Source of the DNA: Limisphaerales bacterium | GTDB lineage: Bacteria > Verrucomicrobiota > Verrucomicrobiia > Limisphaerales > AAA164-E04 | Direction: 5' to 3' | Assembly: GCA_024761205.1 (NCBI GenBank) | Contig: JAMASS010000004.1 | Coordinates: forward strand, 558,001-622,000 | Length of the DNA: 64,000 bases | Shown: piece by piece, positions 19,298-25,436 of the stretch | Layout of the letters: every line of letters begins with the position of its first letter | How positions within the stretch are numbered: position 1 is the stretch's first letter | Position numbers and translations under genes: made by a program | Notes under the pieces: generated by a model | Databases searched by the model: none | Told to the model about the DNA's origin: nothing | Seen by the model: only the letters and a program-made list of their open reading frames with translations

Positions 19298-20300
19298 TGG
19301 GCTTGTCTAAATCCGCCTGTTTCCCGGCGGCGAGCTCTGCGCGAATGGCTTTGACGACGCGACGCTGAATGGTCATAGGCCGTCCCTTGATGCGAGCTCC
19401 GGCCGCTGCCTTGTGGCCTCCGCCTCCGAACTGTTTGGCTATGTCGTTGACATTAATATTCGGACTTTTACTTCTTAAGCTGAGACGGATGACCTCAGTC
19501 TCCAGTTCTTCAAAGAGGCAGGCGACAATGACCGGGGCGATGTCTCGAATATGATCAATGAGCCCTTCAGTATCCTCGCGAGTGGCTCCGGTGCGCTGAT
19601 AGTCGGCGGGCCTCAACCAGAAGTAGGCAATCTCGTTATCGTTGGTGAGTTTAAAGTGATTGTAGACGTGTTTGAGCAGCTTGACCCGAGAGAGCGGATA
19701 GGATTGGTAGACCTCGTCACAGATCACTGCGAGATTGGCGCCTTTATCCACCAAGTCTCCTGCGATTTCATAGGTAGAGGGACGAGTAGTCGGGTATTGG
19801 AATGAACCCGTGTCAGTGGAAATTGCGGTGAATAGACAATCGGCAATGTCCGGTTTGATCACCCAGCGAGCAGCTTTTAGGAGGCGGTAGATGAGCTCGC
19901 CGGACGAGGGCACGCTGGGCGCCACCCAATTGATATCCGCGTAACGAGTATTGCTCGCGTGATGATCGATGTTGATGAGGACTTTCCGGTCTTGGATGAA
20001 TTGCTCAACTTCACCAGTGCGGTCGAGACTAGCTGAATCCACCGCGATGACACAGTCAAAAGATTGCGCCCATTCAGGGTGAGTGAAGACTTTTTGGGTG
20101 TCAAGAAACACCAGTTTTTGTGGAATCGTATCCTGGTTCCAGCAGGTGACTTGGTATCCTTCGTTGCGGAGCGCCAAGGCGAGGGCGATCTGGGAGCCCA
20201 CACAATCACCATCCGGTCTTTGGTGGCCGATCACGCAAAAAACCTTATGGCTGCGGATTGCCTCGATGATGCGGGTGATGATCTTCGGGGCGGTTTTCAT
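19290..20300 (-). CDS. nrnA: DHH/DHHA1 phosphoesterase (NrnA-like oligoribonuclease)
   Basis: 336 residues. Motifs include GHQRPDGDCVGS (motif I), VDSAS (motif II), NIDHHASN (the DHH motif itself) and the C-terminal DHHA1 glycine-rich loop GGGGHKAAAGARI. These are the metal ligands and substrate loop of NrnA-type bifunctional nanoRNase/pAp phosphatase. Its ATG overlaps the rbfA stop by four bases. The location between rbfA and truB is the common genomic context of this family. Confidence 0.93.
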   Translation of the reverse strand: MKTAPKIITRIIEAIRSHKVFCVIGHQRPDGDCVGSQIALALALRNEGYQVTCWNQDTIPQKLVFLDTQKVFTHPEWAQSFDCVIAVDSASLDRTGEVEQFIQDRKVLINIDHHASNTRYADINWVAPSVPSSGELIYRLLKAARWVIKPDIADCLFTAISTDTGSFQYPTTRPSTYEIAGDLVDKGANLAVICDEVYQSYPLSRVKLLKHVYNHFKLTNDNEIAYFWLRPADYQRTGATREDTEGLIDHIRDIAPVIVACLFEELETEVIRLSLRSKSPNINVNDIAKQFGGGGHKAAAGARIKGRPMTIQRRVVKAIRAELAAGKQADLDKPND

Positions 20301-20662
20301 TCCGACGAATCTGATGGCTCCGATCTTTCGAGTTTTTCAATGATCTCGAGAACTCGATTGCCTCGCTCAAGCGAGGCATCCAAAACAAAGCGGAGACGGG
20401 GTAGGTGCTTCAGAATCACGCGAGAGGCAACCTCTTGCTGAATGGCGGCTTGATCCTTTTGGAGTCGACGAATCGCGGCTCGTTTCTGGGATTTTTCACC
20501 GATGATACCGATAAAGACCCGTGCGGATTTCAGATCGTTTCCCATCTGAATATCGACCGCGGAGATAAGGCCGTATTGATCGATCGAGTAATTCTGACGA
20601 ATGATCTCGCCAATCTCGCGCTTCAAGAGTTCACGAACTCTTTCGTGCCTGAGAGGAGCCAT
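20297..20662 (-). CDS. rbfA: 30S ribosome-binding factor A
   Basis: 121 residues, the normal RbfA length. It is a single KH-type domain with the N-terminal RVRELLKREIGEIIRQ helix, the ARVFIG strand and the LRFVLDASLERGNRVLEIIEKL C-terminal segment. It acts in late 30S maturation. It is encoded 24 bases downstream of infB and coupled to nrnA. Confidence 0.95.
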   Translation of the reverse strand: MAPLRHERVRELLKREIGEIIRQNYSIDQYGLISAVDIQMGNDLKSARVFIGIIGEKSQKRAAIRRLQKDQAAIQQEVASRVILKHLPRLRFVLDASLERGNRVLEIIEKLERSEPSDSSE

Positions 20663-20686: not shown

Positions 20687-23128
20687 CTACAGCTCTTGAG
20701 CGACTTCTTCGAGGGAGTAGCTCTCGATGGTGTCGCCTTCTTTAAAGTCATTGAAGTGGTCCAATCGAATACCACATTCCATGCCCGACCGCACTTCGTT
20801 AACCTCGTCCTGAAATCTCCTGAGAGATTGAGTCGCACCTTCGTAAATCATATTGCCATCTCGGTAAACGCGCGCTTTGCCACGCTCAAATTTTCCTTGA
20901 GAAATGACACATCCGGCAACTTGCCCCCCTTTGGATATTCCAAAGATTTTTCGGATTTCGGCGATGCCATTAATGCTGTCTTTGGTGACGGGATCCAACA
21001 GCCCGGCCATCGCTTCCCTGATTTCATCGATCAGTTCGTAGATAATCGAATAGAGTTTGATTTGGACGCTTTCTCGTTTGGCGATTTCTGAGACGCCGGT
21101 GTCCAGCCGAGTATGAAATCCGATGACCACGGCATTGGAGGCTGAGGCTAGCATGACGTCACTCTCCGTCAAGGAGCCGACCCCATTGTGAATAACCTCG
21201 AGATTCACCTTCTTGGAGTCGATTTTCTTCAGGGAATCGACAATTGCTTCCACGGACCCTTGAGTGTCTGCTTTAACGACGACCTTCAAGGTCTTTACGG
21301 AATCTGATGAAAGCGTGTCAAATAGATTCTCCAAGGTGACGGCGTTCCGTCGCTCGGCGATTTCTTGACGGGTTTGTTGAGCGCGTTCTTCCGCGAGTTT
21401 TCTCGCCTGTTTTTCGTTGGGCAGAATATTGAACTCCAGACCGGCTTCGGGGGCACCATTGAGTCCAAGGACTCGAACGGCGACGGAAGGTCCGGCTCGC
21501 TTGAGCCTTTTGCCGTCTTCGTTGATGAGTGCCTTAATGCGGCCCCAGTTGAAGCCGCACAACATAGCGTCGCCGATTTTGAGCGTGCCTTTCCGAACCA
21601 AGACCGTAGCGATAGGACCGCCCTGCTGCATGCCGGATTCGATTACATTCCCCACGGCAGGACGATTCGGATTTGCTTGGAGTTCGAGCACTTCGGATTG
21701 AAGTAAGACCATTTCCAGAAGCGTGTCGATACCCTTCACTTTTAGAGCGGAAACGTCGACAAAGATCGTGTCACCCCCCCATTCCTCACACACGAGGCCG
21801 TAATCTTGCAATTGCTGGCGAGTGTTCAGTGGGCTGGCGCTGGGGAGATCGATCTTGTTAACGCCGACGATGATTGGCACGCGGGCCGCTTTTGCGTGGT
21901 TAAGTGCTTCGATGGTCTGTGGTTTAACGCCGTCGTTGGCAGCGACCACCAAGATGACCAGATCGGTAATGTTGGCGCCTCGCGCTCTCATCGCACTGAA
22001 AGCTGCGTGACCCGGGGTATCCAGAAAGGTGATTTGTTGAAGTTCGCTGGAACGTTCCGGATGCGGAAAATGAATCGTATAGGCTCCGATATGCTGCGTG
22101 ATGCCACCGGCCTCTCCAGACACGACGTTGGACTTCCGAATGACGTCGAGCAGGGTCGTCTTGCCATGGTCGACGTGCCCCATGATCGTAACCACCGGCG
22201 GGCGGGTGATGAGGTCCCCTTCCTTGTCATCGACATCCAGGTCCACCGTGTCGAGCTGGCGCGTGACACCGGCTCCCTTTTCTCGTTTTTCAATCTCGAA
22301 GCGGAAGCCGTGCTTGGCGCAGATTTGTTTGGCGGTGAACTCATCAATCGCCTGATTGACGGTGGCAAAGACGTTCAACTCCATGAGGTCGGCGATCAAC
22401 TGAAACGGTTTCCGATTCAATACCTTCGCCAAATCTCGGACAATGATCGGTTGCTTGAGAGATAGCAACTTGGCATCGAGAGGAGCGACGTATTTTGGTT
22501 TAGGCCGAGCTGGCTGGCTGATAGATTCTTCGGTTGAAAGAGTTGTTTTGTGGGCGTCGGTGCTTCCTCGAGGATCCTTGCGGTGGCCTTTGCGCCCGGA
22601 ATTCTGTTTGTCCCGCCCTTTACCATCCGCCCGCGACCTCCCCTGCATGCCTTTCGGGAGATGAATGAATCCGACTTTGGCGCCCAGGCCGAGCTCATCA
22701 GGTTTCAAGTCGTTGGCAGTCTCGGCCACAACGGAATCTGAGGCATGGTCTTCTCCCGCATCGCTGTCCGTGGTCGCATCCGCTTCGGCAGTGCCGGATG
22801 CGGTGGCTTCAGCTGGTGTGAGGGCGGTGGCCTCGGCCGTCTCCGATTGATCAGCCGCTACCGTCTCTGCCGATGTTTCCGCGGCTGGCTCTTCTTCTGG
22901 GGCCGTAACAATGACGATTCCTTCATCCGCCGGGGTTTCGGCTGTCGCCGAGACGACTTCGGATTCTGGCGGGCCGGCGATTTGCTGTTCGAGATACTCG
23001 GCGGTGATTTTATCCAGAGAGCTGGAGGGAACCCGTGCATTGGTGATCCCGAGATCCTTGGCCCGGGCAATCACTTCCTTATTTGTTATTCCAAGTTTCT
23101 TGGCGATGTCGTATATGCGGACGGGCAT
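20687..23128 (-). CDS. infB: Translation initiation factor IF-2
   Basis: 813 residues. The N-terminal IF2N domain ([20 protein letters not shown]) is followed by an Ala/Glu/Thr-rich linker (about 55-165) and a second IF2N-like domain (about 225-290). The GTPase domain carries G1 GHVDHGKT (about 317-324), G3 DTPGH, G4 NKID and G5 VSAL. The remaining domains II, III and C2 end with the strand [14 protein letters not shown] and the C-terminal beta-barrel that binds fMet-tRNA. All GTPase motifs are intact. Confidence 0.97.
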
Positions 23129-23213: not shown

Positions 23214-24485
23214 TTACTGCGTTTCTTCAAGTTTCAACAAGCGCCGGGTCGACTCTGCCTTGGCGGATTCGAGAATCTGGGCCGCACTGTCTCCGATTTC
23301 GGGGATCTCCTGGAGATCGGCCAAATCGACCTGCAGCAAGTCCTCCAGGGTGTGAAAGCCAATGTTCACGAGAGTGTTGGCCTGTTTTTCAGTGATGCCG
23401 GCGATGGTTGCAAAGGCGCGCACGGCCTGGGCCACTTTTTCTTCAAAGCCCATTTCGGTGACTTCTTGTGCTTGGATATCGATGTGACAGTCGCAGAGTT
23501 TCGAAGTTAACCGGGCATTTTGGCCGCGCTTGCCGATTGCTAGGGAGAGTTGATCGGGTTCCACTAAGACTTTGATTCGGTGACCGCCTTCTTCGGGTTC
23601 GAACGCCAATAGCTTAGCCGGAGAAAGGGCATTGGCGACGAAGGTACGTTGATCATCACTCCAGGGGATGATATCGACCTTTTCGTTGTTGAGTTCCCGA
23701 ACGATATTTTTTACTCGCTGACCGCGGAGGCCCACACAGGCTCCTACGGGGTCAACCTTGGAGTCGTGCGAATGAACCGCTAATTTCGTTCGGTAACCAG
23801 CCTCGCGGGCGATGGACTTGATTTCGATTGTGCCATCGTTGATTTCGGAGACTTCGACCTGAAACAGTTTGATAACGAAGTTGGGGTCGGAGCGCGAAAG
23901 GATGATATCTGGGCCGTGGGGGCCGTACTCTACAGCCTTCACAAAACACCGAATCCGTTCGCCGATTTGGTACTCCTCCGTGGGGACACGCTCGTGGTTC
24001 GGGAGAATGGCTTCAAACCGCCCCAGATCAAGGAAGACGTCTGATCGGTCGAAGCGGCGAACAACACCACTGACGATATCGCCGGTCCGATCCTTGAATT
24101 CTGAATAGATGAGTTGTTTTTCGACGCGACGCAATTGCTGCATGATTGCCTGTTTGGCAGCCTGTGAGGCGATTCGGCCAAAATTGGTTGGCGTGACCTC
24201 AATTTCTACCTCATCACCTAGTTCGGCGTCTTTTTTGGTTTTCCGAGCGTCGGGGAGCGAGATTTCGTCGTGCTGTGAGGTGACCTCCTCGACAACAAGC
24301 CGCTTTGAAAATGTCCGAATATCGCCTGTTTTGGGATCAATCGATACTCGAAGGTCTCGCGCGGGGTTGATGGCTTTCTTAGCAGCCGATACCAGTGCTT
24401 CTTCTACAACTTCGAAAAGGGTATCCTTGCTGATACCCTTTTCGCGTTCCCAAAAGTCCAATGTTGCTAATAGATCGGCGTTCAT
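23214..24485 (-). CDS. nusA: Transcription termination/antitermination factor NusA
   Basis: 424 residues from the ATG at 24485 (MNADLLATLDFWER). A reading back to 24530 would run through the hairpin described separately and is rejected. The RNA-polymerase-binding N-domain (1-130) precedes an S1 domain (GDIVSGVVRRFDRSDVFLDL). KH1/KH2 follow (GACVGLRGQRVKNIVREL and LAIGKRGQNARLTSKL). A C-terminal helix-hairpin-helix region is at about 375-410 (AGITEKQANTLVNIGFHTLEDLL). rimP, which often precedes nusA, is absent; rpe lies upstream instead. Confidence 0.95.
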   Translation of the reverse strand: MNADLLATLDFWEREKGISKDTLFEVVEEALVSAAKKAINPARDLRVSIDPKTGDIRTFSKRLVVEEVTSQHDEISLPDARKTKKDAELGDEVEIEVTPTNFGRIASQAAKQAIMQQLRRVEKQLIYSEFKDRTGDIVSGVVRRFDRSDVFLDLGRFEAILPNHERVPTEEYQIGERIRCFVKAVEYGPHGPDIILSRSDPNFVIKLFQVEVSEINDGTIEIKSIAREAGYRTKLAVHSHDSKVDPVGACVGLRGQRVKNIVRELNNEKVDIIPWSDDQRTFVANALSPAKLLAFEPEEGGHRIKVLVEPDQLSLAIGKRGQNARLTSKLCDCHIDIQAQEVTEMGFEEKVAQAVRAFATIAGITEKQANTLVNIGFHTLEDLLQVDLADLQEIPEIGDSAAQILESAKAESTRRLLKLEETQ

Positions 24486-24514
24486 AATCGCTGTCTCTGT
24501 TCTGTGTTGAGAAC

Positions 24515-24539
24515 AAAAAAGCCGGCTCAAATCGCCGAC
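24515..24539 (-). terminator. Intrinsic terminator-like hairpin in the nusA leader
   Basis: On the minus strand GTCGGC pairs with GCCGGC (one G-T pair) across a seven-base loop and is followed at once by TTTTTT. The T-tract ends 30 bases before the nusA ATG at 24485. That leaves too little room for a separate promoter between hairpin and gene, so nusA transcripts probably start upstream and pass through it. Confidence 0.65.
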
Positions 24540-24761
24540 TTGACCTGCCTCTGCAACACAGCTTTCAAGTAGATTAGGTTGAAACCGTAAAACTTGGCTA
24601 CTGAGGCGTCAAGCCTGATTTGAGGTTACACGGCTACCTGAGCTGCCTGTGGCGGAGGGAGGCGGGTTTGGGACTATTCCTCTGATTTTAGGGTATTTTG
24701 AGGGAATCGGTCTCGGTGCTCTGGTTATCAAATAACCGTTAAGTCATTGGAAATGAACCGG

Positions 24762-25436
24762 TTAATGAGTGCTGGCTTTTCGAAGGTGGCTAACGGCTGC
24801 GCGTAAGTTTGGCTTACTGAACAGGGAGGAACCGGCCACCAGGGTATCCGCACCAGCCTGGGTGCACTGTGAACCGGTGTTGGGATTAATGCCTCCGTCG
24901 ACTTCGATTCTGAATTTCAGGCCTTTTTCTTGCCGCCACTTCGCGGCCGTTTGAATTTTCGGCAGCATTTCCGGAATGAACTTCTGCCCTCCAAATCCCG
25001 GATTGACGGTCATAATGAGGAGTAAATCAATTTGCTTCAGGTAGGGGCGGGCGACCTCCATCGAGGTTGGCGGGTTGACGGCGAGTCCGGTCTTGACGTT
25101 ACGGGATTTGATCTGCCAGAGGAGATCCTTGACCCGGAACCCAAGTTCTGCATGAACGGTGATGGATTCCGCACCAGCGGCGTGAAACGGATCAATCAAT
25201 ATCTCAGGACATTCGCACATGAGGTGAACGTCCATGAATAAGAAGGTCATCGGACGCAGTGTTTTGGCCATTTCAGGGCCAAAGCTGAGGTTCGGTACGA
25301 AGTGACCATCCATGATGTCGAGGTGGATCCACTCGGCACCAGAGCGGTTCGCGCGTTGGATTTCTCGATCTAAGCGAGAGAAATTTGCGGCCAGGAGCGA
25401 AGGGGCGATGATGAGATTCCGCGCGGACTTTAACAT
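24762..25436 (-). CDS. rpe: Ribulose-phosphate 3-epimerase
   Basis: 224 residues, a TIM barrel. Family motifs are SLLAANFSRLDREI, HLDIMDGHFVPNLSFGP (metal ligands His and Asp), MDVHLMCECPE, VNPGFGGQKFIPE and VDGGINPNTG. It interconverts ribulose 5-phosphate and xylulose 5-phosphate in the pentose phosphate pathway. It lies 69 bases downstream of ftsH on the same strand. The 230-base interval to nusA contains the hairpin listed separately. Confidence 0.97.
   Translation of the reverse strand: MLKSARNLIIAPSLLAANFSRLDREIQRANRSGAEWIHLDIMDGHFVPNLSFGPEMAKTLRPMTFLFMDVHLMCECPEILIDPFHAAGAESITVHAELGFRVKDLLWQIKSRNVKTGLAVNPPTSMEVARPYLKQIDLLLIMTVNPGFGGQKFIPEMLPKIQTAAKWRQEKGLKFRIEVDGGINPNTGSQCTQAGADTLVAGSSLFSKPNLRAAVSHLRKASTH

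Follow-up and report, generated by a model that had tools for sequence, protein, structure and literature searches.

A conserved terminator-like hairpin in the nusA leader of Limisphaerales, a candidate rimP-less variant of a known attenuator

NusA promotes intrinsic termination. The closest described counterpart of the element studied here is the rimP-leader (RF01770), a short terminator in the leader of rimP-nusA-infB that is marked by an unusual, conserved stem, GGGc..gCCC (Naville and Gautheret 2010, PMC2965389). In its general form, as that paper describes it, the leader is without an antiterminator and lies 4-130 nt from the gene; NusA is favoured over RimP there as the best candidate for the sensor, and which of the two reads the conserved stem was left open (PMC2965389). 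For the rimP-nusA leader of Streptococcus agalactiae, RNA-seq shows two transcripts that share a start, one short and one long, the leader RNA terminating 31 nt past that start at a predicted intrinsic terminator, and negative feedback by NusA was proposed (PMC4448216). In E. coli, NusA has been reported to lower the expression of its own operon, metY-nusA-infB (Plumbridge 1985, Nakamura 1985, Bylund 2011). In the literature listings searched we found no report on a nusA leader in Verrucomicrobia, and the supplementary species list of PMC2965389 may include cases.

The window, by which we mean the whole 64,000-nt stretch that was analysed (contig JAMASS010000004.1 of the Limisphaerales assembly GCA_024761205.1), carries ftsH, rpe, a 276-nt gap, nusA, infB, rbfA, a DHH-family gene and truB in this order, all on the minus strand (Table 1). 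A preliminary description had given the coordinates of the rpe-nusA gap correctly and had pointed to a GC-rich stem followed by six T shortly before the nusA ATG, which our analysis bears out. The stem, AAGTCGGC-GATTTGA-GCCGGCTT at 24541-24519, has eight pairs, among them five G-C and one G-U. It is followed by a six-T run at 24520-24515, the first two T of which pair with the AA at the stem foot, leaving 29 nt between the last T and the ATG at 24485. The local fold at the hairpin reaches -22 kcal/mol (z -3.3), a stability equalled in 0 of 200 shuffles, and the whole gap folds with a z of -4.4. In a scan of 2.5 kb nine terminator-like sites turned up where 3.5 (sd 2.0) were expected; a single such site is thus unremarkable, and the case for the hairpin rests on comparison with relatives.

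Table 1. Features of the nusA leader and neighbouring genes, in window positions
Feature	Positions	Strand	Basis
rpe, upstream neighbour, outside the element	24762..25436	-	Pfam Ribul_P_3_epim
-35 element TTGACG of predicted nusA promoter	24607..24612	-	TTGAC conserved in relatives
-10 element TACGGT, spacer 17, predicted start near 24575	24584..24589	-	two-element promoter conserved
P1 hairpin position, GCTGG..CCAGC in most relatives, degenerate in window	24547..24562	-	alignment A1
Predicted leader intrinsic terminator, stem AAGTCGGC/GCCGGCTT plus T-run	24515..24541	-	sequence, fold, conservation
CAACACAG, able to pair with CTGTGTTG (24561-24554), enclosing the terminator in read-through RNA	24502..24509	-	sequence
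nusA, first gene of predicted operon	23214..24485	-	Pfam NusA_N, S1, KH_5
infB (IF-2)	20687..23128	-	Pfam IF-2
rbfA	20297..20662	-	Pfam RBFA

Relatives were collected by two NusA searches. The first gave a match in 54 of 58 genomes, the window's own included, from which 30 loci were fetched, and the second gave 80 named contigs, the best 80 of 549, whose titles were mostly Verrucomicrobia (several of them Pedosphaera, Limisphaerales or subdivision 3) with a few Akkermansia, Omnitrophota and Proteobacteria. We took 111 loci as belonging to the window's order, genome loci by their kinship column and contigs by a NusA identity of 63-87%, which is an assignment and not a tree; 94 of these loci, the window among them, are distinct in their last 250 bases. 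All 94 distinct leaders carry the hairpin and T-run, as scored with a regular expression composed after viewing and with one alternative for L083, and the stem starts 51-84 nt upstream of the ATG. A neutral hairpin-plus-T detector, run on the leaders of the window's group, was positive for 100 of 103; of the control windows taken from these loci, 15 of 941 were positive. These data confirm that the hairpin before nusA in the window is genuine, and it probably stops transcription.

In alignment A1 (94 rows, 92 of them distinct), the terminator stem is paired in 99.5% of cells of the distinct rows and is nearly invariant in sequence, AAGTCGG/CCGACTT, with its GTCGG/CCGAC part changing almost only to G-U, and the T-run directly 3' of the stem is invariant. 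RNAalifold predicted this terminator together with the hairpin P1, which is paired in 95.9% of cells and shows changes on both sides at five of five pairs, that is, covariation; in the window row, read by hand, P1 has at most four of its five pairs, two being G-U. P3, a CCCC..GGGG hairpin, is paired in 72.6% of cells and was not predicted by RNAalifold on A1. In transcripts ending at the T-run the stem probability is at least 0.9 in 89 of 92 cases, and in the low-probability leaders L073, L083 and L101 the stem folds in another register.

The promoter is conserved as well. We aligned 330-base upstream regions from 92 loci, two of the 94 distinct leaders being too short, and obtained CTTGACg as the consensus, followed after about 17 nt by TA...T and farther downstream by the hairpins. 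Every one of the 92 leaders has TTGAC 64-79 nt upstream of the stem, versus 66 of 1,840 control zones; CTTGAC occurs in the same zone in 91 of 92 versus 11 of 1,840, and TTGAC with a correctly spaced TA...T in 90 of 92 versus 12 of 1,840. A consensus promoter scan of the window called no promoter, because the window copy agrees with the consensus at just 8 of 12 letters. The predicted start implies a leader of about 90 nt. Because the predicted promoter falls inside the rpe-nusA gap, the predicted leader proper (about 24576-24486 only) is shorter than that gap, and because the conserved promoter element sits upstream of the stem, the hairpin would lie within the predicted nusA transcript. A transcription start between 24515 and 24485 had been named in the preliminary description as evidence against a leader hairpin; the start predicted from the promoter lies upstream of that interval.

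Within genomes the element is nearly unique. The covariance model R1 gave one strong match in the window's own genome (43.8 bits, the next being 16.1) and matched 134 of 146 order genomes at E <= 0.01 and 130 at E <= 1e-4, many of which overlap the training set. The nusA leaders fetched from two of the 12 missed genomes, G001 (L145) and G041 (L146), both show the hairpin by eye, and in L146 a few bases set the T-run off from it. Conservation of the hairpin upstream of nusA in relatives, proposed as a check in the preliminary description, was thus found both in the distinct leaders and with R1. The exact pattern AGTCGG..CCGRCT6 occurs at 53 places in 52 of the 58 order genomes, and its backwards control at 3 places. 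Of the 53, 45 lie directly before nusA, five overlap R1 matches and are counted apart from the 45 with a confirmed nusA coordinate, one is at a contig end and two are elsewhere. One occurrence away from a nusA match is at G046:C58:22673-22691, and one away from an R1 match is at G062:C612:11419-11451. Across the phylum, R1 matched 68 of 240 genomes at E <= 0.1, the window's own included. Because matches outside the order were mostly weak and rarely at nusA (of 29 loci retrieved on account of such matches, L116-L144, two, L117 and L127, contained nusA, and two further matches, in G244 and G247, adjoin nusA by coordinates), we regard R1 as largely order-specific.

Related leaders occur elsewhere in Verrucomicrobiota. 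The sample outside the order comprised the best-matching loci of two further searches, L117 and L127, and hand-picked stretches, and gave 66 distinct nusA leaders. A hairpin with a T-run was found in 56 of them versus 18 of 550 controls; a related stem is present in 59 (GTGGG in 47, GCGGG in 7, GTGGA in 4 and GTGGC in 1), and the stem signature is absent from the other 7. Most of the sampled leaders have AGTGGG..CCCACT plus T. Of 115 phylum genomes, 60 carry the pattern GTGGG..CCCRCTYTTTT, at 69 places in all. Fifty of these places, in 50 of the 111 genomes outside the order for which a nusA match was available, lie 20-255 nt upstream of that match on the same strand, and 19 lie away from nusA; the backwards control gave 28 places. 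AGTGGG/CCCACT and AGTCGG/CCGACT differ by the swap of one pair from G:C to C:G, a compensatory change between clades: the pair is C:G in 91 of 92 leaders in the order; outside it, 54 of 59 have G:C and five are scored G:T.

Several further observations were made on these loci. The stem variant GTGGA(AA)..(TT)TCCAC was seen in four of them (L171, L177, L180 and L205). L160 (G207) and L161 (G186) come from very small, 0.9-Mb genomes of the class and are without the leader signature, as if leader control had been lost with genome reduction in these two. In family f64, the nusA matches of G155, G201, G219 and G255 each contain one in-frame TAA, which may reflect alignment past the natural stop. 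Over 423 positions of NusA, eight differ between the clades, and six of these cluster at residues 176-220, between the end of S1 and the first KH domain; that this cluster, noticed post hoc, changed together with the stem is a lead only.

We considered several ways in which such a leader might be read. In transcripts truncated before the 3' arm, the mean probability that the 5' arm is paired somewhere is 0.62, with values above 0.5 in 68 of 92 leaders, and no recurrent alternative partner of the 5' arm is conserved, the best column pair reaching 13.4 of 92. Transient alternative pairings are thus predicted by the folding model, though no single conserved one, and we rejected an antiterminator since no partner is conserved across the 92 leaders. 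A leader peptide was also rejected, as an ATG precedes the hairpin in just 6 of 92 leaders and no frame length is conserved. A known small RNA, riboswitch, T-box or r-protein leader was rejected as well: Rfam at gathering thresholds identified only tRNA in the window, and the relaxed search of the leader gave at best 15.1 bits against a 41-bit threshold. The rimP-leader model RF01770 (gathering threshold 47 bits) had no match in the window or in 19 loci and was over its cut-off in 0 of 115 phylum genomes; this model is narrow, being over cut-off in just 1 of 14 control genomes. RimP (PF02576) was not found in the window's own genome. Of 93 genomes of the class, six have a PF02576 match at E <= 0.01, only one of them over the cut-off and that one within a 1,087-aa open frame, an absence limited by the sensitivity of a single Pfam model, which was positive in 10 of 14 control genomes. 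Because the leader is kept while rimP is undetected, NusA is favoured over RimP as the sensor.

Like the rimP-leader as described in PMC2965389, the window leader has an intrinsic terminator, here by sequence only, in the 5' UTR of nusA-infB, an unusually conserved stem sequence without a visible antiterminator (transient pairing being predicted here) and a signature that is rare in other terminators, with 2 of the 53 places of the order pattern lying elsewhere, and 19 of 69 for the GTGGG pattern of the phylum. Unlike in that leader, nusA is the first gene of the operon, with no rimP there; the stem is AAGTCGG/CCGACTT (GTCGG..CCGRC in the window and its group) instead of GGGc/gCCC, and an extra hairpin, P1, which covaries in relatives, lies between promoter and terminator. 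The GGG/CCC core of the published rimP-leader is shared by the AGTGGG..CCCACT leaders of the phylum, with GTGGG or GCGGG in 54 of 66. The S. agalactiae leader, on the account given in PMC4448216, is likewise a short leader with a terminator before the nusA operon for which NusA feedback was proposed, but it belongs to a Firmicute, has rimP first and ends at 31 nt, whereas a length of about 60 nt is predicted here from the sequence. The E. coli metY-nusA-infB leader differs from that of the window, and the likeness consists in the control that NusA is reported to exert on its own operon. Because the window leader resembles the rimP-leader in its working but failed on two defining features, we filed it as a variant and not as a member, an attenuator of a known kind in a rimP-less form with a changed stem signature.

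Our preferred reading, to which we give a probability of about two in three, is that the hairpin is the terminator of an attenuator in the nusA-infB-rbfA leader on which NusA feeds back. The data show how the leader is built, that promoter and hairpin are conserved, that the element is almost unique within the genome and that it does not depend on the upstream gene; the action of NusA on the terminator is argued by analogy, and termination itself and the sign of the effect are inferred. Transcription would start at the conserved sigma-70-type promoter near 24575, and RNA polymerase would make about 60 nt and then either stop at the T-run or read into nusA. The level of read-through would most likely be set by a protein, because neither a conserved antiterminator nor a conserved leader peptide can be seen and the stem is nearly frozen. 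NusA, which promotes termination and is encoded just downstream, would be the best candidate, and more NusA would mean more termination and less nusA-infB mRNA, a negative feedback.

The preliminary description had offered NusA autoregulation or a terminator of rpe. The former is retained, with the action of NusA argued from PMC2965389 and PMC4448216 as far as these describe comparable leaders, and the latter falls as a sole role. In the window, the stem does follow the end of rpe by 220 nt on one strand with it, and transcription running on past rpe would likewise meet the hairpin; the hairpin is, however, separated from rpe by a conserved promoter, and the element is independent of the gene upstream. 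In 91 loci with at least 500 nt of upstream sequence, for which only the longest ORF per strand was considered, Rpe was recognised at two, the window and L003. Ten hand-chosen upstream ORFs were checked against Pfam, seven of them on the strand opposite to nusA, and five of these seven divergent genes had a match (histidine kinase in L073, CotH in L102, enolase in L058, aminotransferase in L083 and peptidase S49 in L096); those of L042 and L069 had no Pfam family match. A divergent gene is unable to use the hairpin as a terminator, because it reads away from nusA. On the strength of the intervening promoter, the rarity of Rpe and the five divergent genes, we rejected a terminator for rpe alone, which is hardly credible; a secondary role as rpe terminator is possible.

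It is also conceivable that the terminated RNA of about 60 nt is a trans-acting small RNA whose stem is kept for target pairing, as the discrete promoter-to-terminator unit and the combination of a covarying hairpin with a frozen stem might suggest. However, the letters conserved most strongly are those of the stem, as opposed to an exposed loop or a single-stranded part, and of the 53 places with the motif, 45 are confirmed to lie directly before nusA, so we think this very improbable. That the structure acts on the full-length mRNA (its stability or translation start), for example through an enclosing helix, and not by termination, strikes us as very improbable. The CTGTGTTG/CAACACAG helix in the window is not significant (p 0.21); a similar enclosing pairing, in which one pair is G-U, is seen in L145, from the same genus, and enclosing helices reach p <= 0.035 in L193, L194, L197, L198, L152 and L153, all outside the order. 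Permutation across loci gave 0 of 2,000 in both groups, but it ignores composition; against dinucleotide shuffles, the excess pairing of upstream with downstream segments is clear outside the order (0 of 200) and marginal within it (8 of 200), and for the latter reason we do not build upon the enclosing helix. An invariant T-run right after the stem would, moreover, be unneeded by a structure acting on the mRNA. A different proposal accepts a real leader terminator and lets read-through be set by some other signal, such as another elongation factor like NusG, a ribosomal protein or nucleotide supply, or be a fixed fraction. Its anatomy would be identical, and what the frozen stem suggests is only that its sequence is read by something; another protein or some function in trans could account for it. 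Yet leaders of this kind on nusA operons have been attributed to NusA in the described cases (PMC4448216, PMC2965389), and the element is tied to nusA within genomes. We therefore consider control by another signal unlikely, and feedback by NusA remains our preferred reading.

A wider and more tentative proposal is that Verrucomicrobiota lost rimP and kept an ancient attenuator on nusA, and that the order swapped the G:C pair to C:G and added a second hairpin; this is possible, though we would lean against it. If it is true, the stem would be read sequence-specifically by NusA, or by a partner, that changed together with it in the order, and RimP would never have been the sensor. Retention of the terminator in a clade without detectable RimP is a natural experiment in favour of NusA, and the clade in which one base pair is swapped offers a ready test of sequence-specific recognition. 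For the order itself, R1 provides a compact, searchable model of a regulatory RNA.
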